Below are positions 45,136-57,096 of a stretch of 64,000 bases of DNA, in pieces. The first letter of the stretch is position 1, and each line of letters begins with the position of its first letter. The DNA is from an uncultured Pseudomonadota bacterium (lineage in GTDB: Bacteria; Myxococcota_A; UBA796; SXON01). The notes under the pieces were generated by a model. The model saw nothing but the letters and a program-made list of their open reading frames with translations. It did not search any database and had not been told where the DNA came from. A program made the position numbers and the translations under genes. The stretch lies in assembly GCA_903844155.1 (NCBI GenBank), contig CAIMSU010000232.1, positions 1 through 64,000 of the forward strand, read 5' to 3'.

Positions 45136-45699
45136 TTAGTGGCCGATGATCGTGGCTTCGAACGCCGGATCGGTCAGCGGCGGGGCGAAGCAGTTCGCGA
45201 TGTCGCTGTCCGGAACGCTGTCGCTCGACAACACGCCGGCGATGAGGGCGATGAAGTCGTCGTACTGGGCCTGCGTGATGGCCATGCCCGTGTGGGCGGT
45301 GATCATGTCAGGGCCCGTGTAGGCGCCGGTGGTGCAGCCGTAGGCGTCCGAGATGAAGTTCGCGAGGCTGGTCTCGAACGCCGCGACGGCGTCCGCACCG
45401 CTGGCCACCAGGGGGGCGAAGAACGGCGAGAACTCGGGGTCCGACGCCGCGGTCGTGGTGATCTGCTGCGCGACGAGGGGGACCGCGCCACCGTAGGTCG
45501 CACACACGTCGGTCGTGCAGGCGTTGGTGTCCGTGTCGGTGTCCGTATCGGTGTCCGTATCGGTGTCCGTGTCGGTGTCCGTGTCGGTGTCCGTGTCGGT
45601 GTCCGCTGAGCTGTCCATGGACGGGGACGAGTCAGACGCGCCCTTGCCCGAACAGGCGGTGAGAGAGAGGAACGGGGTGAGAATCAGAAAAGCGTGCAT
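45136..45699 (-). CDS. lipoprotein with Asp-Thr repeat linker and truncated-globin-like domain
   Basis: 187 residues. Lipobox LTAC (Cys16), a Ser-rich stretch, then a run of 13 Asp-Thr pairs (33-58). Residues 67-187 follow the truncated haemoglobin plan: YGGAVPLVAQQI, DPEFSPFF (CD region with Phe), AAFETSLANFI (E helix), YTGPDMITAHTGMAIT with a candidate proximal His136, then YDDFIALIAGVL and a last helix before IIG. The B10 Tyr typical of trHbN is not seen. A lipid-anchored extracytoplasmic globin is unusual. Heme binding is inferred from motif order; two extra Cys pairs suggest disulfides. Confidence 0.62.
   Translation of the reverse strand: MHAFLILTPFLSLTACSGKGASDSSPSMDSSADTDTDTDTDTDTDTDTDTDTDTDTDTNACTTDVCATYGGAVPLVAQQITTTAASDPEFSPFFAPLVASGADAVAAFETSLANFISDAYGCTTGAYTGPDMITAHTGMAITQAQYDDFIALIAGVLSSDSVPDSDIANCFAPPLTDPAFEATIIGH
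45530..45602. repeat. 12-bp tandem repeat encoding Asp-Thr linker
   Basis: About six tandem units of GTGTCGGTGTCC with small variants (GTATCGGTGTCC). It translates on the minus strand as alternating Asp-Thr. Likely to vary in length by slippage without shifting frame. Confidence 0.8.
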
Positions 45700-49743: not shown

Positions 49744-51507
49744 CTACTCGGGCGGGGCGAGCACCCGACGGACCTCCTCGAAGCTGGTCTCGCCGGCCAG
49801 CGCGCGCGCGACGCCCGCGTCCCAGAGCCACACCACGCCCGAATCGTCGCAGGCCTTGCGCAGCGCGTCCTCGCCGCCGTTCGCCCGCAGGATCGCCCGC
49901 AAATTGTTGTTCGGCGCGAGCACTTCGTAGACCGCGATCCGGCCGCGGTAGCCGGTCTCGTTGCACTGCTTGCAGCCAACGGGCACGCGGTGGAGCGCCG
50001 TGGTGACCTGCTCCGGGCTGAGATTGAACTCCACGACCGTGTCGCCCTTGATGGGCTCGGTCTTTGCGCACTGCGAGCACAAGCGCCGCATCAGCCGCTG
50101 AGCGACCACCAATTGCAGGCAGCTCGCCAGCAAGTAGGCCTCCAGGCCCATGTCCATGAGCCGCGCGAACGTCTCGACGATGCCGTTCGTGTGCAGCGTC
50201 GAGAGCACCATGTGCCCGGTCAACGACGCGCGAATTGCGATGGACGACACCTCGTTGTCGCGCATCTCGCCAACGAACACGACGTCCGGGTCCTGGCGCA
50301 GGACCGACCGCAGCGCGCTGGAGAACGTGAGCCCGGCCTTCTCGGCGATCTGCACGTGGTTGGAGCCAGGGATCGCGGATTCGACCGGATCCTCCAACGT
50401 CACGATGTTGATGTCGGGGTCGTTGATGTCGTTGATCGCGGCGTGCAACGTCGTCGTCTTGCCGCTGCCGGTCGGTCCGGTGACGAGCACGAGGCCCTGC
50501 GAGAGGCGGATGACGCGCTTGATCGTCTTGAGCTGGTCCGGGCTGAAGCCAAGCCGCGCCAGATCGGCAAGGTGGGCCTCCTTTTTCATCAACCGGATGA
50601 CGCACTTCTCGCCAAAGACGGTCGGCAACGTCGAGACGCGGAACTGCACGTCCTGGTCGTCCACGCGCATGGACATGTGCCCGTCCTGCGGCTTGCGCTT
50701 CTCGGAGATGTCCATCTCCGAGAGGAGCTTGATGCGCGAGACCATCGGTGGATGCAGGCGTAGGGGCGGGGCGAGCTCGGTCGCCAGCTTCCCGTCGACG
50801 CGAAAGCGGATGCGGAAGAACGTCTCGTAGGGCTCGATGTGGATGTCGCTGGCGCGGCGGTCGATGGCCTGCTTGAGCACGTAGTTGGTGAGGCGCACGA
50901 CGATCGGCACGGCGGCTTCGGGATCTTCGGCCCGAACGCGGCGCGAGATCTCGTCGAGGCCCTCGGTGGGGCTGCCGGGCAGGCCGGGCTGGACGTTGCT
51001 GCGGTCGAGGCCGGTGTCGTTCCCGATCTGGTCCATCAACATGGCCGAGGCGTACCTCGTACTGATGAAGCGGCGGAAGGTCGTCTCGGTGACGAGGCGC
51101 GGCTCCACGCGGGCGAGGCGGGTGCGGGCGAGGATCTCGTCGATGGCCGCGAGGTTCGTGGGGTCGATCATGCCGACGATCAGCACCTTGCCCTTGACCG
51201 CGAGCGGGATGATCTCATGCTTGCGGATGACCGCTTCGGGCAGCAACCGGAGGATCTCGGGGGGCGGGTTGATCGACTCCACGTCGCACGTCTCCAGCCC
51301 AAGCTGCTTGCCAAGGCTGGATTCAAGGTGCTGCTCGGTGATGTAACCCAGGGTGACGAGCACGGATCCGAGGCGGCCGCCGTGGGTTTTCTGGTGTCCC
51401 AACGCGAACACGAGCTGGTCGGGCGTGATGAGCCCCGACTCCACGAGCATGTCGCCGAGGCGGCGCTTGCGCCGCTGGGGGTTGAGGGTCTTCCGGGGGT
51501 CGGCCAA
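49744..51507 (-). CDS. PilB/GspE-family ATPase with MshEN-type N-terminal domain
   Basis: 587 residues from the TTG at 51507 (GGAG 5 nt upstream), which gives the usual opening KTLNPQRRKRRLGDMLVESG. An ATG at 51450 would cut into this domain; a frame up to 51744 adds non-homologous sequence. MshEN-like N-terminal domain with LITPDQLVFALGHQKTHGGRLG, typical of c-di-GMP-binding members. Walker A GPTGSGKTTTLH near 345, DPDVVFVGEMRDNE, LSTLHTNG, and zinc Cys CSQCAK and CKQCNETGYRG. It powers type IV pilus or type II secretion assembly. The second full-length ATPase of this family here, alone without its operon. Confidence 0.88.
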   Translation of the reverse strand: MADPRKTLNPQRRKRRLGDMLVESGLITPDQLVFALGHQKTHGGRLGSVLVTLGYITEQHLESSLGKQLGLETCDVESINPPPEILRLLPEAVIRKHEIIPLAVKGKVLIVGMIDPTNLAAIDEILARTRLARVEPRLVTETTFRRFISTRYASAMLMDQIGNDTGLDRSNVQPGLPGSPTEGLDEISRRVRAEDPEAAVPIVVRLTNYVLKQAIDRRASDIHIEPYETFFRIRFRVDGKLATELAPPLRLHPPMVSRIKLLSEMDISEKRKPQDGHMSMRVDDQDVQFRVSTLPTVFGEKCVIRLMKKEAHLADLARLGFSPDQLKTIKRVIRLSQGLVLVTGPTGSGKTTTLHAAINDINDPDINIVTLEDPVESAIPGSNHVQIAEKAGLTFSSALRSVLRQDPDVVFVGEMRDNEVSSIAIRASLTGHMVLSTLHTNGIVETFARLMDMGLEAYLLASCLQLVVAQRLMRRLCSQCAKTEPIKGDTVVEFNLSPEQVTTALHRVPVGCKQCNETGYRGRIAVYEVLAPNNNLRAILRANGGEDALRKACDDSGVVWLWDAGVARALAGETSFEEVRRVLAPPE

Positions 51508-51681
51508 GCGGGCTCCAGGGTGGGCCGGGGCAGGGTCTCCCGGCTCCCTCCGCCGAGGCCAAGGGCGGGATGAGACCGGCATCGGGGGCGGTCGGCCGGG
51601 TTTCGGGTGTGCAGGCGCACACGGGGCTGTGCGATATCGCCCAATCTGCGACGCGGCGTGCCGTGAAGACGAGTTCAATGC

Positions 51682-51697
51682 TGGCACAGCCATTGCA
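51682..51697 (+). promoter_or_regulatory. sigma-54-type -24/-12 promoter
   Basis: TGGCACAGCCATTGCA matches the consensus TGGCAC-N5-TTGCW exactly. Transcription would start near 51708, 29 nt before the small ORF at 51737 and about 106 nt before the TolC-like gene. Confidence 0.75.
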
Positions 51698-51736
51698 GCG
51701 GGGCTCCACATCCACACCCTGCTACCGGAGTTCAGC

Positions 51737-51796
51737 ATGGTCACCTTCCGCCTCTTCGCGCCCTACCCCGCAGGAAACTGCGGGGTCACGTTCTGA
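51737..51796 (+). CDS. 19-residue leader ORF before the TolC-like gene
   Basis: ATG at 51737 with CCGGAG six nt upstream; the peptide is MVTFRLFAPYPAGNCGVTF. It lies 17 bp before the TolC-like ORF and downstream of the sigma-54 site. The stop follows a stable hairpin inside its own coding sequence. A cis-acting leader peptide is a reasonable guess. Too short for any homology argument. Confidence 0.4.
   Translation: MVTFRLFAPYPAGNCGVTF
51766..51785 (+). promoter_or_regulatory. perfect 8-bp hairpin with GAAA tetraloop inside the leader ORF
   Basis: CCCCGCAG-GAAA-CTGCGGGG, fully paired with a GNRA tetraloop. No T-run follows, so it is not a standard terminator. A ribosome translating the leader would melt it, offering a coupling or pausing mechanism. 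Confidence 0.55.
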
Positions 51797-51813
51797 CGGC
51801 GGGGCGTCCAGCC

Positions 51814-53268
51814 GTGGGTGCCCGGGGGATCACGTTTTGCGGATTACTGGCGTTATCGCAGGTGTTTGCCGTTCGACATGCCCGCGCGGGTGACGCTCCC
51901 GCTGATCTCGACGCCCTCCTGGCTCTCGCTCTGGACCGTCACCCCGAGGCCGCGGCGTTGACGGCTGACGCGCACGCTGGTCGTGCTGAGGCCATCGCTG
52001 CCGGTCGCCCGATGGACCCGGAGTGGATGATCGGCGCCCAGGCGCTCGGCGCGATGCCGTCCTCGCTCGACCCGACGATGCTGATGGTGGGCTTCAACCA
52101 GACGATCCAGCTCCCTGCCGCGTACCAGGCCCCTCGCGCCCGGGCGTCGTTGGACGTGCGATGGGCGGAGGAGGAGGAGTTCCGCCTCGAAGCCGACCTT
52201 CGCGAGACCCTCTGGGAGACCGCCGCCCGCCTGCATGCCGATGGCCTCGAAGCCACCGCGCTCGACGACGAGGTCGCCGCCGCGGAAGCCGCGCTCGCTT
52301 TTGGGCGGGCCCGATACGCGGCAGGTGCGGGCACGACGGCGCCGATGCCACGGTCGTCCTCGGCCGTCCCGGCTGCGGCTGGAGCGGGTCGGCCCGTGGT
52401 CCAGCGCCCGGAAGCTGGCGCGGTCGGGATGGGGGCGATGACGGGGATGGGCGGCGGGCAGGCGACAACCGGGACGATGACGGGGACCGGGTCGATGCCG
52501 GGGATGGGTGGGTCGACGCCGGGGATGGGGGCGATGACGGGGATGGGCGGGGCGATGACGGGGATGGGGGCTGAGGGGCTCGCCGCGTTGCTCGGGCTGC
52601 AGACGCAGGTGGCGCGCGTGCAGGCCGACCGGGCGGCGCTCGCGGCGACCACGGATGGCGAGCGTGCGCGGCTCGCCTTGATCGTCGGCGACGACGTTGC
52701 CGGACTGGTCGCTGCCGACCCATCCCGGTTCGTCGGTGTGCCGACGGCGCCCCGCGCGCAGCCCGAGCGCACCCTGGCCGCCACCACGGTCCGGATGGCG
52801 ACGGCGGACCTGACCATCGCGCGGACGGCCCGCCAGCCGACCTTCATGGTCGCGACCGCGCTCCGGGTGATGCCTGAGGGCATGATCGACGGTGTGGATG
52901 CGCAGCTTGGCGTGATGTTCCCGGTCTGGGACGGCGCCCACGCGCGCATCGAGGCGGAAGCGGCAGACGTGGACGCCGCGAGTCGCCGCGCCGACATGGT
53001 CGGCCGTGAGCTGGACGAGGCCATCGCCATTGCGCGGAGCGACGAAGCCGCCGCCGAAGCCCGCGCCACCGCGCTGAACACCCTCGCCCGGCCATCCGCT
53101 CGCGCCGCCTGGAGCGCCGCGCTCGCCGTCTGGGGCACCGGCTCCGGCACCACCGCCGACCTCGTCAGCGCATGGCAGCAGGACGTGGCCGTCACCCGCG
53201 ACGCCATCGCTGCAGACCTCGCCGCCGAGCTTGCCCGCGCGCGCGTCGCCCGCCTGGAGGGGAGATGA
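51814..53268 (+). CDS. TolC-family outer-membrane efflux protein with a Met/Gly-rich insert
   Basis: 484 residues. Signal-like N-terminus (GITFCGLLALSQVFAVRHARA). The first OEP half has LALALDRHPEAAALTADAHAGRAEAIAAGRPMDPEWMIG and a long coiled coil (EEEFRLEADLRETLWETAARLHADGLEATALDDEVAAAE). Residues about 200-253 are an insert with 11 Met (GMGAMTGMGGG, SMPGMGG, AMTGMGGAMTGMG). The second half repeats the helical hairpin. TolC/CusC proteins form the outer channel of tripartite exporters; Met-rich motifs often bind Cu(I)/Ag(I). No periplasmic adaptor or RND pump is adjacent. Confidence 0.8.
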   Translation: MGARGITFCGLLALSQVFAVRHARAGDAPADLDALLALALDRHPEAAALTADAHAGRAEAIAAGRPMDPEWMIGAQALGAMPSSLDPTMLMVGFNQTIQLPAAYQAPRARASLDVRWAEEEEFRLEADLRETLWETAARLHADGLEATALDDEVAAAEAALAFGRARYAAGAGTTAPMPRSSSAVPAAAGAGRPVVQRPEAGAVGMGAMTGMGGGQATTGTMTGTGSMPGMGGSTPGMGAMTGMGGAMTGMGAEGLAALLGLQTQVARVQADRAALAATTDGERARLALIVGDDVAGLVAADPSRFVGVPTAPRAQPERTLAATTVRMATADLTIARTARQPTFMVATALRVMPEGMIDGVDAQLGVMFPVWDGAHARIEAEAADVDAASRRADMVGRELDEAIAIARSDEAAAEARATALNTLARPSARAAWSAALAVWGTGSGTTADLVSAWQQDVAVTRDAIAADLAAELARARVARLEGR

Positions 53269-53305
53269 ACCGCATTGTTGCCCGTTCCCGGGCTGAGGAG
53301 TGACG

Positions 53306-54676
53306 ATGTTCCTGACATTTCTGGGTGGTGCCGGCACGATGACCGGATCGAAGACGCTGCTGGAGGCGGGCGACGCGCGCATCCTCATTGACTGCGGCTT
53401 GTTCCAGGGGTTGAAGCAGCTACGGCTGCAGAACCGCGCCACGCCGCCGGTGGATGTGCGGTCACTCTCGGCCGTCATCCTCACGCACGCCCACATCGAC
53501 CACTCCGGCTACCTGCCCGCGCTGGTGAAAGCCGGCTTTCGTGGTGACATCTGGTGCACGGACGGCACCGCGGATCTCTGCCGTGTCATCCTGCCCGATG
53601 CCGGGCACCTCCAGGAAGAGGACGCGCACTATGCCAACAAACGGGGCTTCTCCCGCCATCATCCGGCGCAGCCGCTGTTCACCCGCGACGACGCGGACCG
53701 GTGCCTGGAGCGCCTCAGCCCGGTGCGGTACAGCGCCGAATTCGCCCCGGCGATGGGCATCACCGCACGCTTCCGGCGAGCCGGGCACATCGTCGGCGCC
53801 GCGCGCGTGGAATTGACTGTTGGCGGCCGACAGATCGTGTTTTCCGGCGACGTCGGCCGGCCCGTCGACCCCCTCCTCCTGCCCCCCGATCCGCTCGATC
53901 CCGCCGACGTGATCCTGGTCGAGTCCACCTACGGCGACCGGAGGCACGAGCCCGGCGATCCGGCCGATGCCCTGGCGACGATGCTCCGCCCCGTCCTCGA
54001 ACGCGGCGGCGTCGTGATGGTGCCCGCCTTCGCCGTCGGCCGCGCGCAGACGATCCTGCACCTCGTCACCCGGTTGAAGGCTGAGGGGCGTCTGCCGGAC
54101 GTGCCCGTGTACCTCGACAGCCCCATGGCGATCGACGCGACCGAGATCTACCGCCGCCACGTCGACGACCACCGCCTCTCCCCGCAGGAGTGCGCCGCGA
54201 TGTGCCGCGCGGCCACGTTCACCCGCACGCCCGACGAATCCAAGGCGATGAACCGTCAGGAAGGGCCGATGATCATCATCGCCGGGAGCGGCATGGCGAC
54301 GGGCGGACGGATCGTCCACCACCTGGCGCAACGCGGGCCGGACCCGAAGAACGCCTTGTTGTTCGCGGGGTTCCAGGCGGCGGGGACGCGCGGGCAGGCG
54401 CTGCTGAACGGGGCGGAGGGCGTGAAGATCCACGGGCAGTGGGTGCCGATCCGGGCCGAGCGTCTGCGGCTGGACAGCATCTCCGCCCACGCCGACGCGG
54501 GCGAGCTGCTGGACTGGCTGGCGACGATGGTGGCCAACGGCGGGTCCGGGCCCTCCCGCGTGTACATCAACCACGGCGAGCCGGCGGCGTCCGACGCGCT
54601 CCGGGTCCGCATCCGGGACCGGTTCGGCTGGGAGGCCGAGGTGGCCAGGCCCGACCAACGCGTGGAGCTGCCGTGA
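53306..54676 (+). CDS. beta-CASP metallo-beta-lactamase ribonuclease-like protein
   Basis: 456 residues from the ATG at 53306 (GAGGAG 5 nt upstream). MBL part: FLGGAGTMTGSKTLLEAGDARILIDCG, metal motif LTHAHIDHSGYLP, GHIVGAARVEL, SGDVGRP, ESTYGDRRH. Beta-CASP part: FAVGRAQTILHLV, YLDSPMAIDATEIYRRH, IIIAGSGMATGGRIVHHL, SISAHADAGELLDWL (motif with final His). This family (YmdB/Ysh1-like) processes RNA 3' or 5' ends. Its stop overlaps the P-type ATPase start (GTGA). Confidence 0.9.
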   Translation: MFLTFLGGAGTMTGSKTLLEAGDARILIDCGLFQGLKQLRLQNRATPPVDVRSLSAVILTHAHIDHSGYLPALVKAGFRGDIWCTDGTADLCRVILPDAGHLQEEDAHYANKRGFSRHHPAQPLFTRDDADRCLERLSPVRYSAEFAPAMGITARFRRAGHIVGAARVELTVGGRQIVFSGDVGRPVDPLLLPPDPLDPADVILVESTYGDRRHEPGDPADALATMLRPVLERGGVVMVPAFAVGRAQTILHLVTRLKAEGRLPDVPVYLDSPMAIDATEIYRRHVDDHRLSPQECAAMCRAATFTRTPDESKAMNRQEGPMIIIAGSGMATGGRIVHHLAQRGPDPKNALLFAGFQAAGTRGQALLNGAEGVKIHGQWVPIRAERLRLDSISAHADAGELLDWLATMVANGGSGPSRVYINHGEPAASDALRVRIRDRFGWEAEVARPDQRVELP

Positions 54677-57096
54677 CGCCGGCGGCTCCGGTGTCCGGCC
54701 GGACCGTCGCCGCGAGCCCGTCAACCGGATTGACCGCCGCCATCGCCGCAGAGCGGCTCGCGGAATTTGGCCGGAACGAAATCCAACGCCAGGCCCGAAC
54801 GCCGCCGTGGAAGATGCTCGTCGGCCAGTTCACGAGCCCCGTCATCGCGCTGCTCGTCGTGTCCAGCATCATCGCGCTGGCGCTCGGGCAGGTCGCGGAC
54901 GGGGTCGCGATCCTCACGATCGTCGCGCTCAACGGCGTCATCGGCTTTTTTCAGGAGTTTCGTGCCGAACGTGCTGTCATGGCGCTGCGAGCGATGACCG
55001 CCCCGCGCGCTCGTGTCCTGCGCGACGGGCACGCGCAGGTGATCCCCGCAGCCGACGTCGTCCCCGGCGACCTCCTCCTCCTCAAGGCCGGCGACCTCGT
55101 CGCCGCAGACGCCCGGCTTGTCGAGGTGAACGGCCTCGCCGTCAACGAAGCGGCGCTCACCGGCGAGTCCCTTCCCGTCGACAAGGACCCCACGCCCCTC
55201 GGCGACGACGTCGCGCTGCCCGACCGGCGCGACCACGTGTACGCCGGCACCGCCATCGTCGCCGGGACTGCCACCGCCGACGTCTACGCGACCGGCATGA
55301 AGACCGAGCTTGGCCACATCGCGCACCTGCTCGCGACCGCCGAGGACGCCGACACGCCGCTGCAGATCGAGCTGGCACGCGTCTCCGGCACGCTGATCAA
55401 GCTCTGCCTCGGGATCGTCGCAGCCGTGGGGATCCTCGGGTTCGCGCAGGGGCTGGGCTGGCTGGACGTGCTTCTCTCGTCCGTCTCGCTCGCTGTGGCG
55501 GCGGTGCCCGAAGGCCTCCCGGCCGTCGTCACCATCGCGCTCGCTGTTGGGATCCAGCGGATGGCGGCCCGGAATGTGCTCGTCCGACGCCTGCCTGCGG
55601 TTGAGACCCTCGGCGCCGCCACGGTCATCTGCACGGACAAGACCGGCACGTTGACCACTGGAAAGATGACCGTCCGCGACGTGTGGGCCAGGGACCCGCG
55701 CGCCGCCGCCACCGCCGCTGTCGCGTGCTGCGATGCCGACCTCGTCACCGCGACCGGCGACCCCACCGAGCTGGCGCTCCTGGCGTGGGGGCGCGGCCTC
55801 GGGCTCGACCGGGCGACGGTCGAAACCGCGAACCCCCGTCGCTCGGTGCACCCCTTTGACGCCACCCGAAAACGCATGTCGATCCTACGGAGTGACGGCG
55901 TCCTGTACGTGAAGGGCGCGCCGGATCGCATGCTTGGGCTGTGCGTCTCCGGGACGGATGGGGCGACGGAGGCGGGCGAGGCGATGGCGGCGCGGGGGTT
56001 GCGGGTCCTCGCGCTGGCGACGGGTACGGACGACGGGAGTGACGATCCCGAACGCGGGCTCACGCTGCTCGGCCTGGTCGGCATCGCGGATCCGCCGCGC
56101 CCGGACGCGGTCACAGCGGTGGCAGCGGCCGCCGCCGCGGGCATTCGCACCGTCATGATCACCGGCGATCACCCCGTCACCGCCGAGGCCATCGCCCGCG
56201 AGATGGGCATGCTTTCACCGGGCGAGGCCGCGGAGGGCTTCGTGCACGCCCGCGCGACCCCCGAGGACAAGCTGCGCATCGTGCGGATGTGGAAGGAGCG
56301 CGGCGCCATCGTTGCGATGACGGGCGACGGCGTGAACGATGCGCCTGCGCTGCGCGAAGCCCACGTCGGCATCGCGATGGGGCGCGGCGGGACGGAGGTC
56401 ACGCGCGAGGCGGCGGACATCGTGCTCTCCGACGACAATTACGCCAGCATCGTCGCCGGCGTGCGCGAGGGGCGGGCGATCTATGACAACATCCAGAAGA
56501 CCGTCGTGTACCTGATGGCTGGGAACCTCGGGGAGCTGCTCGTGATGTTGGGCGCGGGGCTCGCGGGGATGCCGCTCCCGCTGCTGCCCATCCAACTCTT
56601 GTGGATCAACCTCGTCACCGACGGCCTCCCGGCGCTGGCGATGGTCGTGGACCCGCCCGAGGCCGACGTGCTCGCGCGACCGCCGCGTCGCCAGTCCCAG
56701 CCGATGCTCGGGCGGCAGGAGTGGACGACGATCGTGTGGACGGGCGCGCTTCAAGGGGCGACGACGCTGGGGATCTACGCGTGGACGTTGCCGCACGAGG
56801 GGCTGGCTGCGGCGCGCAACATGGCGTTCACCACGATCGTGTTCGGCGAGCTGTTCCGGGGGTTCGCGGCCCGCAGTCGCACGCGGACGTTCTGGGAGGT
56901 GGGGGCGCTGTCGAACATGCCGCTGCTGCTCGTCGTCATCGTCTCGACCGCAGTCCAGCTCACGCTCCACCACGTCCCGGTCGCGGAGCGCTTCTTCGGC
57001 GTCACGCCCATCTCGCTCGCCGATTGCCTGCTTTCGTTGGGGCTTGGGCTCGTGCCCGTCACGTTGGTGGAGCTGAGCAAGCTGGCGCGGCGGTGA
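54673..57096 (+). CDS. P-type (P2) cation-transporting ATPase
   Basis: 807 residues from a GTG overlapping the beta-CASP stop. N-terminal cation-ATPase domain (GLTAAIAAERLAEFGRNEI), A-domain NEAALTGESLPVDK, M4 AVPEGLPAVVTIALAVG (PEGLP as in Ca2+ pumps), phosphorylated Asp322 in ICTDKTGTLTTGKMT, hinge MTGDGVNDAPALREAHVG, M5-M6 with NLVTDGLPALAM. These motifs are those of P2-type Ca2+/Mn2+ ATPases; no CPx heavy-metal motif. It is likely an inner-membrane Ca2+ or Mn2+ exporter, odd beside a Met-rich TolC. Confidence 0.9.
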   Translation: MTPAAPVSGRTVAASPSTGLTAAIAAERLAEFGRNEIQRQARTPPWKMLVGQFTSPVIALLVVSSIIALALGQVADGVAILTIVALNGVIGFFQEFRAERAVMALRAMTAPRARVLRDGHAQVIPAADVVPGDLLLLKAGDLVAADARLVEVNGLAVNEAALTGESLPVDKDPTPLGDDVALPDRRDHVYAGTAIVAGTATADVYATGMKTELGHIAHLLATAEDADTPLQIELARVSGTLIKLCLGIVAAVGILGFAQGLGWLDVLLSSVSLAVAAVPEGLPAVVTIALAVGIQRMAARNVLVRRLPAVETLGAATVICTDKTGTLTTGKMTVRDVWARDPRAAATAAVACCDADLVTATGDPTELALLAWGRGLGLDRATVETANPRRSVHPFDATRKRMSILRSDGVLYVKGAPDRMLGLCVSGTDGATEAGEAMAARGLRVLALATGTDDGSDDPERGLTLLGLVGIADPPRPDAVTAVAAAAAAGIRTVMITGDHPVTAEAIAREMGMLSPGEAAEGFVHARATPEDKLRIVRMWKERGAIVAMTGDGVNDAPALREAHVGIAMGRGGTEVTREAADIVLSDDNYASIVAGVREGRAIYDNIQKTVVYLMAGNLGELLVMLGAGLAGMPLPLLPIQLLWINLVTDGLPALAMVVDPPEADVLARPPRRQSQPMLGRQEWTTIVWTGALQGATTLGIYAWTLPHEGLAAARNMAFTTIVFGELFRGFAARSRTRTFWEVGALSNMPLLLVVIVSTAVQLTLHHVPVAERFFGVTPISLADCLLSLGLGLVPVTLVELSKLARR

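Follow-up and report, generated by a model that had tools for sequence, protein, structure and literature searches.

Enhancer-driven transcription from a sigma-54 (RpoN) promoter probably places a metal-efflux operon of an uncultured bacterium in a low-oxygen regulon, under a response regulator encoded on contig C319 of the same genome (G000:C319). The operon would comprise genes for a CusC/TolC-like outer membrane channel (OEP), a beta-CASP protein and a P-type cation ATPase, predicted to share a single transcript. Its activator would be a regulator of the NtrC family, bound at a TGTG-N6-8-CACA enhancer, whose candidate gene lies beside a cbb3 oxidase operon and the gene for a protoglobin histidine kinase. 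Once activated at low oxygen, this regulator would engage RNA polymerase-sigma-54 at 51682-51697, transcription would then begin near 51708, and the likely use of the operon would be relief of Cu(I) or other cation stress at low oxygen. The operon is predicted to belong to the low-oxygen regulon because the C319 regulator is proposed to be active when oxygen is low. A short leader ORF and hairpin in front of the channel gene would then form a 5′ leader particular to this lineage, whose influence on translation is local at most. Such a predicted operon is a variant on a known kind, whilst the translation coupling that a preliminary description of this DNA had proposed is unsupported. Throughout, the window is the whole stretch of DNA that was analysed (64,000 nucleotides).

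The promoter and its predicted start are:
51682-51697, + strand: sigma-54 -24/-12 promoter, TGGCACAGCCATTGCA, an exact consensus match
51708, + strand: predicted transcription start, placed about 12 nt past the GC of the -12 element

The exact TGGCAC-N5-TTGCA site on which the preliminary description was built is indeed present. It reads TGGCAC-AGCCA-TTGCA on the + strand, its GG and GC elements are spaced 10 bp apart as in the consensus, and it is the sole exact match within the window; six further sigma-54-like matches each carry one or two mismatches. Sigma-54 promoters usually start transcription about 12 nt downstream of the GC in the -12 element. The genome encodes RpoN (PF04552 match, E 5e-60), and neither an intrinsic terminator nor a sigma-70 promoter was found in 51400-51900.

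Moreover, the site is conserved. [T/C]GGCAC-N5-TTGC lies upstream of the OEP gene in all eight loci with a readable upstream region (the window, L013, L014, L015, L016, L017, L018 and L020), weak homologue rows such as L009, L012, L027, L028 and L030-L047 having been left out before the count. In dinucleotide shuffles of each 280-bp upstream region, GGCAC-N5-TTGC occurred on the same strand at a frequency of 0.0003-0.0037 per locus. Because L014-L016 are alike, as are L018 and L020, the eight loci represent about five independent lineages. The sites of L013 and L017 read CGGCAC and have no dyad upstream in an alignment-free site scan, both of which count against the main reading. So does the lack of any genome-wide excess of the bare 16-mer, which has 6 exact matches over the 8.13-Mb genome versus 4 for the reversed control. 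These last figures are what might be expected of a chance match in GC-rich DNA, but conservation makes such a match unlikely: the position is kept in 8/8 loci at the low shuffle frequencies just given, and with the dyad and its phasing described below also standing against it, chance is scarcely credible as an explanation. The distance from TTGC to the start codon is 12-14 nt in L014, L015, L016, L018 and L020, 19 nt in L017 and 107 nt in L013. Given the usual sigma-54 spacing, transcription in the first five would start on the start codon itself or no more than about 4 nt from it.

Three genes lie downstream of the promoter:
51814-53268, + strand: OEP outer membrane channel gene, CusC/TolC-like, with a Met-Gly-rich insert (PF02321, alignment, model and fold match)
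53300-54676, + strand: gene for a beta-CASP metallo-beta-lactamase protein, occupying the position of the relatives' cusB-cusA
54718-57096, + strand: gene for a type-II (calcium-like) P-type ATPase, 66-71% identical to the post-cusA ATPase of L014, L015, L016 and L018

The first product had been called TolC-like, which agrees with its PF02321 domain and with a structural model (mean pLDDT 74.9, moderate confidence, with the insert and signal region below 50) whose fold matches TolC-family channels, including CusC (3pik) and SilC (9rmm). Matches to the OEP were found in 8/58 related genomes by protein search and in 9/22 family genomes by profile search; strong matches are confined to seven genomes, the window's own included, and a class-wide search returned only weak matches beyond the family. 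A wider scan of genome contigs gave six loci, whose contigs have the same lengths as contigs already represented. Among the relatives, the OEP gene heads a CusC-CusB-CusA-P-type-ATPase operon. Further efflux genes follow it in L013-L016 and L018, with CusB-type domains confirmed in L013 and L018 and RND domains in L013 and L016, and the RND protein of L016 passes the CusA/CzcA model. The operons of the window and its relatives correspond, since the ATPases that follow the RND gene in the relatives are this similar to that of the window. No cusA or cusB match was found in the window or in the next 16 kb, and the missing CusB-CusA counts against the main reading. In L013, which belongs to the window's genus, similarity to CusA (L013:9547-10605, G004:C53) runs at 69% identity over the first 285 residues and then stops. 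Together, these two loci suggest that the pump is being lost from the window's genus, where its part of the operon seems to be eroding. The Met-rich insert is only suggestive as a sign of Cu(I)/Ag(I) export, and copper is a candidate substrate.

Several features of the neighbourhood are recorded here in their own right. The beta-CASP protein (53300-54676) matches the NCBIfam type VII CRISPR Cas14 model with 328 bits versus a cut-off of 800, and also matches an archaeal aCPSF1 model below its cut-off. A divergent gene (49744-51510, - strand) encodes a PilB/GspE-type ATPase with a c-di-GMP-binding MshE-type N-terminus and starts about 100 bp from the dyad described next; the pilus gene pilR is also acted on by NmpR of Myxococcus xanthus. 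A short predicted protein at 45136-45699 (- strand) contains a long Thr-Asp dipeptide run.

Upstream of the promoter, two inverted repeats can be distinguished:
51607-51622, no strand assigned: predicted enhancer dyad S1, GTGTG-N6-CACAC (core TGTG-N6-CACA, 51608-51621), centred at -67 from the sigma-54 site
51628-51643, no strand assigned: possible second dyad S2, TGTG-N8-CCCA, one mismatch, centred at -46

S1 is absent from the preliminary description and emerged from comparison of upstream DNA. Similar inverted repeats lie upstream in L014, L015, L016, L018 and L020, where they were compared by alignment-free site scan; their spacings differ between promoter regions. A one-mismatch site resembling S2 also occurs in L018 at -47. 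Searching the class for TGTG-N6-8-CACA, then 40-70 bases, then TGGCAC-N5-TTGC returned 29 rows, corresponding to 27 distinct promoters in 18/71 genomes, and the reversed pattern gave 0 matches in the same 71 genomes. An everted dyad control returned 13 rows in 12/71 genomes, six at the same promoters and seven elsewhere, and this counts against the main reading. Across 377 phylum genomes (the 71 class genomes included) the pattern was matched in 36, namely 18/71 inside the class versus 18/306 outside it, and the reversed control gave 3 matches. With one dyad taken per promoter, the 22 centres fall into groups around -48, -59 and -71, and the period that fits them best is 11.1 bp (P = 0.0005 versus uniform placement, n=22, kinship among promoters ignored). 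Such phasing would be expected of an enhancer-bound protein, which has to face the polymerase. At -67, the window's S1 does not fall in step with these groups, which counts against the main reading; the imperfect S2 at -46 comes nearer to doing so. As a separate observation, GTGTG-N8-CACAC was spotted by eye in L013:6763-6885 (G004:C53), between the sigma-54-like site and the ATG.

The genes behind these promoters point to respiration. Five of the 27 dyad promoters precede OEP genes (window, L014, L015, L016, L018), and 16 of the other 22 (L082-L103) lie ahead of respiratory or low-oxygen-type genes, as judged by domains. Six precede ccoN of a cbb3 oxidase (L082, L092, L094, L095, L096, L101), three a CBS protein gene (L083, L085, L088) and two a NosZ gene (L099, L102). 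Single cases make up the rest. L097 has a cytochrome c552 gene of NrfA type; in L084 a short ORF comes first, then a DsbD_2 gene and a USP gene; in L086 the gene for an Fe-S protein comes before that for a hydrogenase-like small subunit; L098 encodes a disulphide reductase-like protein, part of which resembles DsrC, and then a DsrE protein; and in L093 a multihaem cytochrome gene stands behind a gene that belongs to no family. Six of the 22 have no evident low-oxygen link and count against the main reading: an acyltransferase (L087), genes of no family (L089, L090, L091), Host_attach (L100) and a transglycosylase 1.7 kb away (L103). Start codons at these other dyad promoters often lie 14-31 nt from the promoter.

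A candidate for the protein that binds the dyad is found beside the oxidase genes. Pfam searches place a response regulator with a sigma-54 interaction domain and a Fis-type HTH, together with a Protoglobin-PAS-HisKA kinase, next to the cbb3 operons of L095, L096 and L101; in L094, scanned for the regulator alone, and L092, scanned for the kinase alone, the respective gene was likewise found beside the cbb3 operon. The window's own genome carries an NtrC-type regulator, a protoglobin kinase and ccoN in the same arrangement on C319, the regulator being 73% identical to that of L101 and the ccoN having TGGCAC-N5-TTGC just ahead of its ATG. No dyad with one mismatch or fewer was found at this own cbb3 promoter, which counts against the main reading. 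A near-perfect dyad, TGTGGCATATCCCACA (L110:5136-5151), lies about 22 bp ahead of the C319 regulator gene (L110:5173-6546), making autoregulation possible, and CGGCAC-N5-TTGC occurs near the same gene on the opposite strand (L110 position 5054). The preliminary description had suggested looking for an enhancer-binding protein nearby, and this was not borne out: no PF00158 activator gene was found on the window's 142.5-kb contig, the candidate being the one on C319.

Some 19 strong sigma-54 activator domains are encoded in the genome, and the operon is of the metal-efflux type. Both points would suit a metal-responsive, ZraR-type enhancer-binding protein acting at a genuine promoter in place of the globin-linked regulator. 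We nevertheless regard such an activator as unlikely, since the dyad is common to respiratory, not metal, genes in 16/22 of the other promoters. The globin-linked NtrC-type regulator is the probable activator, with low oxygen as the probable signal. Globin kinases described in print (PMC11841059) are active in the presence of oxygen, which counts against the main reading and leaves the direction of the low-oxygen response here a prediction. Taken together, the site at 8/8 loci, a dyad common to other sigma-54 promoters, and RpoN and a candidate activator in the same genome uphold one half of the original account: judged from sequence, the sigma-54 promoter was soundly observed and correctly read as activator-driven. 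Its other half, the translation-coupled leader, did not stand, as discussed below.

The enhancer-driven reading leads to a further, more tentative proposal. A fall in oxygen alone, sensed by the globin kinase and relayed through the NtrC-type regulator and sigma-54, might induce the periplasmic metal-efflux channel operon in a feed-forward manner, ahead of any copper sensing and without it. Combined with this would be a leaderless or nearly leaderless pump mRNA in five of the seven relatives, given that their predicted starts coincide with the start codon or lie about 4 nt from it at most; if true, this would be an unusual output for a sigma-54 promoter. We consider this combination somewhat doubtful, albeit possible.

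Between promoter and channel gene lie the two elements that gave rise to the translation-coupled account:
51737-51796, + strand: 19-codon leader ORF plus stop (ATG 51737, TGA 51796), with GGAG at 51727-51730 and 6-nt spacing
51766-51785, + strand: 8-bp stem CCCCGCAG-GAAA-CTGCGGGG inside the leader ORF, with no T-run after it

As structures, these are just as had been reported: a good ribosome-binding site six bases ahead of the ATG, a perfect GAAA-capped stem within the leader codons, and a stop whose TGA begins 8 nt after the stem, 17 nt before the OEP start (GTG 51814). Among comparable stretches, about 2% contain a perfect 8-bp stem and about 3.5% an ORF of 10 codons or more with an SD ahead of it; the two coincide in 0.02% of shuffled sequences (n = 5000) and in 0.13% of the 3116 tiles taken from the window itself. 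The pair is uncommon, though it was picked after the sequence had been seen. No terminator-like stem with a T-run was found in 51400-51900. An imperfect direct repeat, GGGG(A)TCACGTT(C/T)TG(A)CGG, links the end of the leader ORF (51782-51799) with the inside of the OEP start (51825-51842).

If the leader were regulatory, ribosomes would traverse the hairpin within the 19-codon ORF and then start again at GTG 51814, making synthesis of the OEP dependent on translation of the leader. The good Shine-Dalgarno sequence, the stem, the 17-nt gap from stop to start and the rarity of the combination would all suit such an arrangement, and in a fold of 51708-51860 the region around the OEP start is base-paired with the leader's 5′ end, which makes a local effect on translation possible. 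L013 likewise has a short ORF in its long leader, of 14 codons, whose TGA overlaps the OEP ATG. However, the sequence and fold of the L013 leader are unlike those of the window, with no such hairpin, and five of the seven relatives, whose start codons come 12-14 nt after TTGC, have next to no leader. Moreover, a DNA search of 22 family genomes with the leader (51690-51822, 133 bp; E up to 10) recovered the leader itself as the sole strong match; weak rows appeared in all 22 genomes, the next best having E = 0.0016 over 34 positions. On these results the leader was discarded as a conserved element. A regulatory leader is accordingly quite improbable; its ORF and hairpin seem to be a local peculiarity and are most likely incidental to the conserved design.

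The leader ATG might instead be the ancestral OEP start, with the present leader produced by a frameshift or an assembly error in the metagenome-assembled genome (MAG). Proteins of L014-L016 start MVL just past the promoter and the leader peptide starts MV, and the start distances of 14-31 nt common at other dyad promoters are not far from the 40 nt that this would require. Against this, the OEP starts 12-19 nt past TTGC in 6/7 relatives, not 40, the leader peptide is without a hydrophobic signal segment, and a plausible signal peptide begins at GTG 51814. We therefore think it very unlikely that the ancestral start has been displaced in this way.

In summary, a sigma-54-driven, low-oxygen efflux operon would, if true, tie control of metal efflux to oxygen limitation in uncultured bacteria known from MAGs, whose cells may switch on metal export as oxygen runs low. 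A concrete enhancer motif (TGTG-N6-8-CACA, with its phasing of about 11 bp) and a candidate regulator-kinase pair make the whole low-oxygen regulon directly testable. It also follows that a striking leader ORF and hairpin can be local to one genome. Efflux at low oxygen would fit the greater toxicity of copper without oxygen, where Cu(I) predominates, as stated in the accessible text of PMC9302797. No Cus operon controlled by both sigma-54 and oxygen was found in a literature search whose scope left most subscription journals outside, and the word copper is absent from the accessible part of a sigma-54 regulon survey (PMC12316311).

CusCBA of the E. coli type, which is regulated by CusRS, resembles this system in the OEP-CusB-CusA order and Met-rich segments of the relatives and in the fold of the window's OEP, which is like CusC and SilC. 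It differs in that here the promoter is of the sigma-54 type with an enhancer and a type-II P-type ATPase belongs to the operon, and in that the window is without cusB-cusA and has a beta-CASP gene in that place. DosR of Mycobacterium tuberculosis is not known to act as a sigma-54 activator. Its target CtpF offers a parallel in that a P-type ATPase of the calcium type is placed there under two-component control tied to low oxygen, whereas no efflux channel gene is mentioned in the accessible portion of that paper (PMC9180918). AfGcHK of Anaeromyxobacter likewise has a globin domain on an oxygen-sensing histidine kinase, but was studied as an enzyme, and promoters like these are not described in the sections available (PMC8697598).

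The closest published system, as far as the available text of PMC11841059 extends, is NmpRSTU, which governs an oxygen-utilisation regulon in Myxococcus xanthus. In this system an NtrC-like regulator works with a protoglobin kinase and a hybrid kinase, its targets include CBS, USP, P-type ATPase-cbb3 and hemN-hemerythrin genes, and a sigma-54 site was shown to be necessary for one gene set under its control (PMC11841059). The word efflux is absent from that portion of the paper, and no NmpS-like hybrid kinase was found beside the regulator-kinase pair in L110. The NmpRSTU site reads GCGCA-N5-TGCGC, against TGTG-N6-8-CACA here, and NmpR is fed via the hybrid kinase NmpS, whereas here kinase and regulator stand side by side with a cbb3 operon (PMC11841059). 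Both systems nonetheless combine a protoglobin sensor kinase, an NtrC-like regulator, dyad enhancer sites and sigma-54 promoters (PMC11841059), and six ccoN, three CBS and one DsbD_2-Usp promoter among the 22 dyad promoters of the class genomes extend the likeness to the genes that would be controlled.
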